Source: a virus
Direction: 5' to 3' (one strand)
DNA: 27,149 nt
Virus record (IMG/VR): IMGVR_UViG_3300045051_001501
Coordinates: 1-27,149 of that record
Below the pieces are notes generated by a model. That model was not told where the DNA came from, searched no databases, and worked only from the letters and a program-made list of their open reading frames with translations. Position 1 is the stretch's first letter. The number at the start of each line of letters is the position of its first letter. Shown one piece after another: positions 954-18,616 of this stretch. The position numbers and the translations under genes are program-made.

Positions 954-1760
954 ATGATTGATTCATTAAAAAAGTTATTTGGCAATAAATCTGAATCGGA
1001 AGTTACTTATATACCTATCGGTGAAAAACAAATAATAGGTAATGGAAGGATACAGATAGAGGTGCAACATGTAATTGGGCAAAAAACGCCTGCTGAACAA
1101 AAAATATGGGAGCTTAACCATAAAGCCTCTCAATTAAAGGACTCTGATATAAATGCGGCGATTGCTTGTTTAGCTGAAGCGCAAGTTATAAGGCCAACCG
1201 TTTCATGCCAATACCCTATATTAGAATACTTAAGATTGCCTGTTTTTTTGCAACAGGCAGGCAGAATGGCAGAAGCTGAAGAGGAGTTTAAAAAGCTGCT
1301 TAACCTGTTCAATTGCGGACATGAACACGCCAAAATTTACGACAAGATGCGTCTGACGTACCAAAGGGAAAAATGGTTTGACGAGGCTATAAAGTTTGGA
1401 GTGATGTCATTAGCTTGTACTTTTATAGGGATAAAAAACAGTAAAAACTTTGCAGAAAAGCACATCAACAATTTGAGTAATGAACAAAAGAACGCGGAAG
1501 AATGGCGAAAAGATTTTCTTCAGGGGCTGATTGATTCTTACCAAGAAATGGCGGACAGCACAGAAATTAGCTTGCAAAAAGCAATTAAAGAGATGCGTGA
1601 AAGATTGCCGGTTGATATTACGAAATTACTGAAAAAAGCCAAAAAAGAGGCTCTTTTACAGGGTGTTATTGATGATTTTGATGTGTTTATGGATGACATG
1701 ACGATGACGGCTTGCATCGCTTTAGGGGAAAAAGTAGCCCAACGAATTAATAATTTTTGA
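954..1760 (+). CDS. Hypothetical AT-rich cargo protein with TPR-like helices
   Basis: 268 residues from ATG 954, preceded by GGGAG at 942-946; an in-frame ATG at 918 has no ribosome-binding site. I do not recognise the family. The N-terminal 40 residues look strand-forming. The middle contains an alanine/glutamate-rich helical stretch (QQAGRMAEAEEEFKKLL) and another (KWFDEAIKFGVMSLA) that resemble tetratricopeptide repeats. The C-terminal third is charged and helical. No signal peptide or membrane segment is evident. The gene is more AT-rich than its neighbours, sits between its own promoter and the next promoter, and interrupts the usual Mu middle-late order. Those are signs of an acquired cargo (moron) gene. 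Its function is unknown. Confidence 0.7.
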   Translation: MIDSLKKLFGNKSESEVTYIPIGEKQIIGNGRIQIEVQHVIGQKTPAEQKIWELNHKASQLKDSDINAAIACLAEAQVIRPTVSCQYPILEYLRLPVFLQQAGRMAEAEEEFKKLLNLFNCGHEHAKIYDKMRLTYQREKWFDEAIKFGVMSLACTFIGIKNSKNFAEKHINNLSNEQKNAEEWRKDFLQGLIDSYQEMADSTEISLQKAIKEMRERLPVDITKLLKKAKKEALLQGVIDDFDVFMDDMTMTACIALGEKVAQRINNF

Positions 1761-1786
1761 CAACAAGCGCATCATCAGCTTATGAT
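1757..1786 (+). promoter_or_regulatory. Sigma70-type promoter of the c4-ant locus
   Basis: A consensus TTGACA at 1757-1762, an 18-base spacer and TATGAT at 1781-1786. The -35 box overlaps the stop codon of the preceding gene. Transcription would begin near 1793, directly upstream of the c4-like RNA, so the small RNA and the antirepressor would share this promoter as in P1, P7 and P4. Confidence 0.75.
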
Positions 1787-1792
1787 TTTACT

Positions 1793-1871
1793 GCACTTGC
1801 AAAAAACAAGTGTCGGGAATACCACCCCGCTGATGATAAATACCGCCAAGCGCGGAATGCGCTATTTTTTT
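1793..1871 (+). ncRNA. c4: C4-type antisense RNA regulating the downstream antirepressor
   Basis: A short transcript is predicted from the promoter at 1757 to a terminator with stem AGCGC (1849-1853) / GCGCT (1859-1863), followed by a run of seven T residues. Its body contains 1819-1844, which is complementary to the leader at 1927-1949. Two blocks (GGTATTT and TCAGCGG) match in order, a four-base bulge lies between them, and TGGTAT ends the match. A second block, ACCGCCA (1842-1848), pairs with TGGCGGT at 1981-1987. A promoter-proximal antisense RNA cut from the same transcript as its target is the hallmark of the C4 family. The start position is an estimate. Confidence 0.75.
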
Positions 1872-1900
1872 GCCTGTCGTTTTTGTAATGATGGGTTGGC

Positions 1901-2011
1901 ATGAGCCGCGTTATGCGGGTCGCTTTGGTATTTTCAGCGGCAGTGGTATCTCATGTCAACTCGTCACCCAATACCACAGGTGGCGGTTTTTACATCAATA
2001 GGAAAAATACC
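1901..2011 (+). promoter_or_regulatory. Antirepressor leader: C4 target and possible orfX/icd-like leader peptide
   Basis: The leader holds the two C4-complementary segments (1927-1949 and 1981-1987). It also has a self-complementary pair, GTGGTAT (1943-1949) and ATACCAC (1971-1977), so C4 pairing would compete with a leader hairpin. An ATG at 1901 opens a frame that runs in phase into the antirepressor gene and encodes an N-terminal extension of 37 residues. In P1, translation of such a leader frame is coupled to ant, and C4 blocks it. Whether 1901 or 1913 is really used as a start cannot be decided here. Confidence 0.6.
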
Positions 2012-2638
2012 ATGAATACAAATCAATTAACCGTTTGCAACACTTCTATTCGTCAAGATGCTGATGGTCGCTATTTTTTGAACGACTTACACAAAGCATC
2101 GGGTGGTCATCAAAAAGACAAGCCAGTCCACTTTCTAAAACTAGAAAGCACTCAAGCATTGATTTCTGAGCTTGAAAAAAATCCTACCTCCGAGAAAATC
2201 AATAACTTAGAGCCTGTTAAAACGGTAAATAGCTTTAGCCTTGAGCAAGGGACTTACGTTGTTAAACCATTGGTTTATGCCTATGCGATGTGGATTAGCG
2301 CAAAATTTCAACTGCAAGTCATCCGCGCTTACGATGCGCTGGTCACAACCAACGTTTTAACCATCCCAAACGCTTTAACCCTGGCAGAGTTTGAACAAGC
2401 CCAAGACCAACTGGCCAGAGCGCAAGAAGCCTTAAACCGCGCCACCCTGCAATTAAGCGTTGGCGAATACGAAGCCCTGCTCGACCAAAGAACCGTGTAT
2501 CATGTGCCTGGCAAAGCCTTAGCCCTGATGGAAAAACACGGCATCCCGCGCGATGAAATCTGCAAAGCCGCAGGGATTAACCGCAACAACTTACGCCAGC
2601 ACCTGCACCACGTTGCAAAACAAGGCGGTGCAGCATGA
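2012..2638 (+). CDS. KilA-N domain antirepressor-like protein
   Basis: 208 residues from ATG 2012, with a purine-rich AGGAAAAA before it; a longer in-phase start exists at 1901. The N-terminal half has the KilA-N pattern: a modified residue-rich strand (TSIRQDADGRYFLNDLHKAS), then KPVHFLKLEST, then GTYVVKPLVYAYAMWIS, then FQLQVIRAYDAL. A helical linker (LARAQEALNRATLQL) follows, and a C-terminal helix-turn-helix-like segment ends with HGIPRDEICKAAGINRNNLR. KilA-N proteins bind DNA and many phage members antagonise repressors. The C4-like RNA upstream strongly supports an antirepressor role. The gene stop overlaps the next start (ATGA). Confidence 0.8.
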   Translation: MNTNQLTVCNTSIRQDADGRYFLNDLHKASGGHQKDKPVHFLKLESTQALISELEKNPTSEKINNLEPVKTVNSFSLEQGTYVVKPLVYAYAMWISAKFQLQVIRAYDALVTTNVLTIPNALTLAEFEQAQDQLARAQEALNRATLQLSVGEYEALLDQRTVYHVPGKALALMEKHGIPRDEICKAAGINRNNLRQHLHHVAKQGGAA

Positions 2639-9011: not shown

Positions 9012-9203
9012 CAGCCGTTTTAAGGCGCATTTGTCAATTTTGGCTATCAAGGTATTAAAACACAAAAACCGCAGCTTCTACCTCCGTTAAACCCCCGTTA
9101 AATTTGATGTTTTAAAACGATTTTGAACACGATGACACGGATTATTAGACTAACAGGATTAAATCCTGACAATCCTGGAGTCTAAGAGAATCATGTTCAA
9201 ATA
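9012..9203. other. Intergenic region with CAGGATT-type palindrome
   Basis: No gene is evident in the gap before the protease operon. It holds a 15-bp palindrome CAGGATTAAATCCTG at about 9154-9168 and a partial repeat (CAATCCTGGA), members of the same short repeat type as at 11582-11662 and 7512. No convincing T-tract terminator was found for the MuF transcript. Confidence 0.4.
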
Positions 9204-9221
9204 ATAAACCGCTTTACTATC
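9204..9221 (+). promoter_or_regulatory. Late-promoter element, copy 2 (PI position)
   Basis: Second exact copy of ATAAACCGCTTTACTATC, extended upstream by AAATA that is shared with copy 3. It ends 31 bases before the protease/scaffold ATG, the location of the PI late promoter in Mu. Confidence 0.7.
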
Positions 9222-18564: not shown

Positions 18565-18598
18565 TTGAATAGCGTGTGAATTGTAACGTGGTTAAATA

Positions 18599-18616
18599 AT
18601 AAACCGCTTTACTATC
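18599..18616 (+). promoter_or_regulatory. Late-promoter element, copy 3 (PP position)
   Basis: Third exact copy of ATAAACCGCTTTACTATC, again with AAATA before it as in copy 2. It lies 58 bases before the sheath ATG. It would drive a separate transcript for sheath, tube, chaperone, tape measure and the rest of the tail. Confidence 0.7.

Follow-up and report, generated by a model that had tools for sequence, protein, structure and literature searches.

In phage P1, the antisense RNA C4 blocks translation of ant. In the c4-icd-ant arrangement of P1 and P7, the two C4 loops, a' and b', pair at the start of the antirepressor operon. The satellite phage P4 carries seqA-CI-seqC, where target-like segments stand upstream and downstream of a C4-family RNA, and it is described as terminating transcription of the replication genes. 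The Salmonella prophage Gifsy-1 has the order isrK - STnc1160/orf45 - anrP (PMC4825925), that is, a promoter, IsrK with its terminator, a C4-type RNA, a small ORF running through C4, and an antirepressor gene. Providing IsrK in trans increases the translation of anrP by more than 100-fold, and the authors prefer that IsrK refolds its own mRNA over titration of the C4-like RNA (PMC4825925). The c4-a1b1 motif (RF03163) comes from Weinberg 2010 (PMC2864571), and a 2023 paper found relatives of CI and seqA with the C4 and isrK models (PMC10111431). These two papers already point to one IsrK-C4 system; a 2025 review of phage RNAs still lists the two, IsrK and c4, separately (PMC12197685).

Scoring the known systems with the C4 (RF01695) and isrK (RF01394) models, we found both in P1 (68.8 and 35.1 bits, the isrK-like segment lying upstream of C4), in P4 (74.9 and 60.8 bits) and in Gifsy-1 (69.0 and 79.3 bits). 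Since the same two models match all three phages, IsrK, P4 seqA and the P1 c4 leader are the same element. Here we describe a locus of this type in a viral DNA stretch of 27,149 nt, which we call the window. Its module is a new example of a widespread, known phage module and not a new kind. With it, the IsrK-C4-antirepressor switch known from P1, P4 and Gifsy-1 is seen in a Mu-like phage, where it forms a movable cassette.

Gene order and RNA family matches

The window is a Mu-like phage fragment. It carries the end of gemA, a Mor-type activator (PF08765), a 268-aa ORF, the RNA module, lysis genes, small and large terminases and then a Mu-type portal (PF06074). This gemA-mor-lysis-terminase order and the synteny with three related viral contigs (L166, L167 and L170) support the assignment. 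The cassette sits after Mor and before the lysis genes, which agrees with its earlier placement between a Mor-type activator and the late genes. The 268-aa ORF (954-1760) between Mor and the RNA module gave only a weak match, to phrog_38637; it is absent from the same site in L166, L167 and L170. All features of the cassette lie on the plus strand.

A sigma-70-type promoter, TTGACA-18-TATGAT, with 11 of 12 consensus matches, occupies 1757-1786, just upstream of the isrK match. Likewise, the promoter directly 5' of isrK drives the operon in Gifsy-1 (PMC4825925). The 77 bases from 1793 match the isrK model end to end at a permissive threshold (47.7 bits, E 2.3e-9). As this is 2.3 bits short of the gathering cut-off of 50 bits, we call the RNA at 1793-1871 IsrK-like. 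It has three hairpins and a terminal U-run, possesses its own promoter and is complementary to the RNA directly downstream. Its intrinsic terminator (1849-1871) consists of a hairpin at 1849-1863 plus a T-run, and readthrough of it is needed for C4 and KilA-N. The sequence-only reading had recognized the consensus promoter and the short RNA with its own terminator, and both are confirmed. Promoter-like and terminator-like sites are no commoner in the window than in shuffled sequence, so these two elements alone prove little.

Scanning the whole window with Rfam at curated cut-offs, we found a C4 RNA at 1884-1971 as the sole RNA besides one tRNA. It scores 49.5 bits against a cut-off of 45 (E 7.1e-7) and has stems P1, P2 and P3 and a predicted fold with z -4.2. 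The alignment to the C4 model places the b' loop UGGUAUUUU at 1926-1934 and the a' segment GUGGUAU at 1943-1949. The GGW motif at the expected RNase P site reads GAU, with an A for the second G of the GGU in P1 and P7. The c4-a1b1 model RF03163 gave no match at E 10. A uORF of 37 codons (1888-2001) runs through C4 and ends with UAG at the Shine-Dalgarno (SD) sequence of the next gene. Its geometry is that of Gifsy-1 orf45, except that the uORF ends 10 nt short of the AUG whereas orf45 overlaps it. Because a stop of this type near the start codon occurs in only 26 of 96 relatives, a conserved uORF is not a general feature.

The gene that follows (2012-2638) encodes a 208-aa protein with the KilA-N domain of phage antirepressors (PF04383, E 1.5e-18), as had been read from the sequence. 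The protein also matches phrog_129 (transcriptional regulator) and phrog_2127 (anti-repressor), and it is a probable antirepressor. Its ATG at 2012 is preceded by AGGA and gives the normal N-terminus of the family. The in-frame ATG at 1901 is an unlikely start, lying inside C4 with no clear SD. A 58-aa ORF (2635-2811) overlaps the KilA-N stop codon as ATGA and is probably cotranslated with it; domain and phrog searches gave it no family match. Downstream of the cassette, a terminator-like hairpin AAAGCCCU...AGGGCUUU (2895-2916) has z -3.7. Unlike Gifsy-1, the module lies in a Mu-like phage, adjoins Mor and has a KilA-N effector, and no antQ is seen in the window. Unlike P4, an antirepressor-type gene follows the RNAs.

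Two sets of targets for the C4 loops

The a' segment of C4 is complementary to AUACCAC at two places, namely a1 (1819-1825), in the loop of the second IsrK-like hairpin, and a2 (1971-1977), directly after C4. Similarly, the b' loop is complementary to b1 (AAAUACC, 1838-1844) in the IsrK-like RNA and to b2 (AAAAUACCA, 2004-2012), which extends from the SD (AGGA, 2000-2003) into the KilA-N AUG. The two partners of each loop are mutually exclusive, and CCGCUGA at 1827-1833 extends the IsrK:C4 duplex. Both loops of a C4 RNA are typically complementary to a target where ribosomes bind the next gene, and so they are here, but b' covers the SD-to-AUG space (GGUAUUUU) and is not the usual anti-SD of P1 and P7.

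We compared these pairings with non-cognate sequences. The duplex between 1819-1844 and 1926-1949, already noticed in the sequence-only reading, reaches -34.1 kcal/mol, beyond all 76 non-cognate upstream regions (mean -21.4, best -30.1), in a calculation that ignores the internal folding of each RNA. None of the 77 non-cognate start regions has a run as long as the 9 nt at b2, and the run at a2 likewise surpasses every control. As single exact runs, a1 was equalled or exceeded by 3.9% of the controls and b1 by 11.7%. Simple cofolding of IsrK with C4 gained only 3.8 kcal/mol, no better than some non-cognate pairs; as kissing loops cannot be represented in it, such cofolding is uninformative for both IsrK:C4 and C4 with the ribosome-binding site.

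For a coevolution analysis, we drew 56 non-overlapping pairs from 112 dereplicated loci, each pair joining similar loci that differ in the tested arm. We scored whether an arm fits its own partner or the neighbour's partner better (own:swapped). Using disjoint neighbours in this way largely controls for shared ancestry. C4 against IsrK gave 44:1 for a':a1 and 51:1 for b':b1, and C4 against the downstream targets gave 40:5 for a':a2 and 52:1 for b':b2. The C4 stem P1 scored 38:0, and the P2-arm control gave 22:14, which is not significant. As all four C4-target pairings coevolve across these loci (40:5 to 52:1), the module is genuine. IsrK-type RNAs and the antirepressor start region thus compete for the same C4 loops. 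The sequence-only reading was right that this Mu-like phage has a complete antisense module of the C4 type, and right to place it among phage immunity-type RNA modules. A second pairing site proposed there, ACCGCCA/TGGCGGT, is present when the window is folded in cis by prediction, but it is not conserved; the equivalent pairing in relatives, between the IsrK tail and the segment after C4, shows no significant coevolution at 17:20.

The roles given to the two RNAs in the sequence-only reading have to be exchanged. There the short RNA (1793-1871) was taken as the C4-type antisense repressor and the KilA-N leader (1901-2011) as its target, an idea suggested by their complementarity. However, RF01695 matches the leader and not the short RNA, and a scan of 1760-1890 returned isrK only, with no C4. 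The isrK family, to which the short RNA is matched, is an activator in Gifsy-1, and the start-codon pairing is made by the leader RNA. We consider the original assignment very improbable. With C4 placed inside the leader that had been taken for the target, repression of KilA-N would be expected to come from C4, by way of b2 in the start-codon region, a pairing that the earlier reading lacked.

We give a probability of roughly 70% to the reading that the cassette is a self-contained antirepressor unit controlled by a C4-type RNA, in which the IsrK-like RNA relieves a C4 block of KilA-N translation. The promoter at 1757-1786, the only one of the module, would yield mostly the short, terminated IsrK-like RNA. 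Readthrough would produce a longer transcript, at once the source of processed C4 and the KilA-N message. C4 would then pair through a' with a2 and through b' with b2. As b':b2 covers the SD-to-AUG space, KilA-N should stay untranslated while C4 is present. The IsrK-like RNA, whose a1 and b1 imitate a2 and b2, would occupy the same C4 loops, so its accumulation should relieve repression. KilA-N would then probably inactivate a phage repressor and promote induction. No repressor gene lies in the window, and the candidate target of KilA-N thus lies outside the fragment; the action on immunity suggested earlier, on the phage's own repressor or on other prophages, would be of this candidate kind. 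By analogy with Gifsy-1 and P1, repression of KilA-N translation by C4 and titration of C4 by an IsrK-type target mimic form the most likely course; we infer processing, repression, titration and the KilA-N target from the arrangement of the locus.

The main rival follows P4. C4 would pair with the nascent IsrK segment, the equivalent of seqA, and/or with the downstream target, and would stop transcription before KilA-N, with a block of translation being secondary. The match of P4 seqA and CI to the same two models, and the intrinsic terminator directly after a1b1, speak for this possibility, which was also raised for STnc1160 in Gifsy-1 (PMC4825925). On the other hand, constitutive STnc1160 failed to counter IsrK there (PMC4825925), and the complementarity of b' to the start-codon region itself fits a translation block. 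We regard termination, which the sequence allows, as unlikely, though it deserves more weight than the exchanged roles, and keep translational control by C4 as our preferred reading.

Could the module be a decayed, functionless remnant? With 49.5 bits, its C4 scores towards the low end of a range that reaches 86, but all pairings, the promoter, the terminator, the SD and the KilA-N frame are intact. Decay looks different in the nearest relative of the module (L014, G001:C89:2406-2495; 80% alike), with its early stop and partial b pairing. That locus keeps a2, but a stop at codon 4 interrupts the gene behind it and the b pairing is weaker, features suggesting decay there. For the window, we find a remnant hardly credible.

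A putative covarying helix beyond the C4 closing stem

Examining the sequence after C4, we noticed a further complementarity, which we call helix H (1962-1985). It joins 1962-1968 (CGUCACC) in the 3' strand of the C4 stem P1 to 1979-1985 (GGUGGCG), with a2 in the loop. The partner segment lies 10-20 bases beyond the outer 3' strand of P1. Helix H competes with the outer base pairs of P1 and excludes them, and it is absent from the Rfam C4 model. Its own:swapped ratio is 44:3 (38:5 by exact runs), and its mean score is 6.39, compared with 5.66 (s.d. 0.07) in 300 random re-pairings. The inner part of the same C4 strand gave only 14:15, so the segment does not simply repeat the whole stem. By eye, helix H is also present in P1, P4 (GCUAUCGCC/GGCGAUAGC) and Gifsy-1 (UCACCACC/GGUGGUGA).

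In the predicted ensembles of the precursor, P1 usually wins: its outer pairs have a mean probability of 0.82, and helix H reaches 0.45 under a loose definition. As H is not favoured in most of these ensembles, it would be an alternative and not the default. Tentatively, and at a little short of even odds, we propose that in C4 modules generally, including P1, P4 and Gifsy-1, a downstream segment pairs with the 3' strand of the C4 closing stem. This would loop out a2 and open the foot of the stem, where RNase P is expected to cut, so that the nascent leader could choose between release of C4 and a translatable antirepressor message. If real in the RNA, helix H would help to explain how one transcript gives both an antisense RNA and a message. 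It is the one part of the module that may be new. The open papers searched, which do not include the P1 and P4 originals of the 1990s, contain no account of it, so it may already be known.

Relatives and mobility of the cassette

A blastn search of the module against phage records gave no match, and searches for KilA-N homologues yielded no more than 2 viral and 8 genome loci, of which 6 were just short, distant matches. C4 RNAs are very frequent in the order to which the nearest relative (G001, a Methylococcaceae MAG) belongs, exceeding the cut-off in 126 of 301 genomes, and isrK matches occur in 25 of 369 genomes drawn from the class. Where loci were chosen by isrK alone, C4 lay directly downstream on the same strand in 19 out of 20. 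The C4 RNAs of the 301 genomes number up to 12 per genome and stand before several types of antirepressor-like genes. The Methylococcaceae MAG also has tandem isrK-C4-antirepressor units, two per contig (L136, G001:C89, 1516-2495; L137, G001:C133), which differ in their loop sequences.

The related Mu-like phages bear on how the cassette came to its site. In L170, whose terminase is 75% identical, a terminator and then the lysis operon come straight after Mor. L166 (68%) carries an RNA module at the same place, about three quarters identical to the window when aligned over IsrK-C4, followed by AntA/AntB antirepressors (PF08346) and not by KilA-N. Searching 17 related Mu-like records found by their terminase, many of them fragments, we detected C4 only in that of L166. 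As L170 lacks the cassette and L166 has the same RNA with another antirepressor, the module with its effector behaves like a moron that some Mu-like phages have taken up as a cassette, and its RNA part and effector can be recombined. The suggestion that the module was imported gains support from the same two phages.

Three near-identical copies of AT(T/A)ATAAACCGCTTTACTATC occur in the window, upstream of the lysis genes (2849-2869), the protease/capsid genes (9201-9221) and the tail sheath gene (18596-18616). The motif is also present before the L170 lysis operon and, in a diverged version, in L167. These copies are probably the late promoters of this Mu-like phage. Just upstream of the first one lies a palindrome, CAAACCCTAGGGTTTG, perhaps a Mor/C site. 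At the right end, after a Dam-type methyltransferase, a tRNA-Lys (TTT) is found on the minus strand, opposite to the phage genes (26757-26832); it may be host flank or phage cargo.
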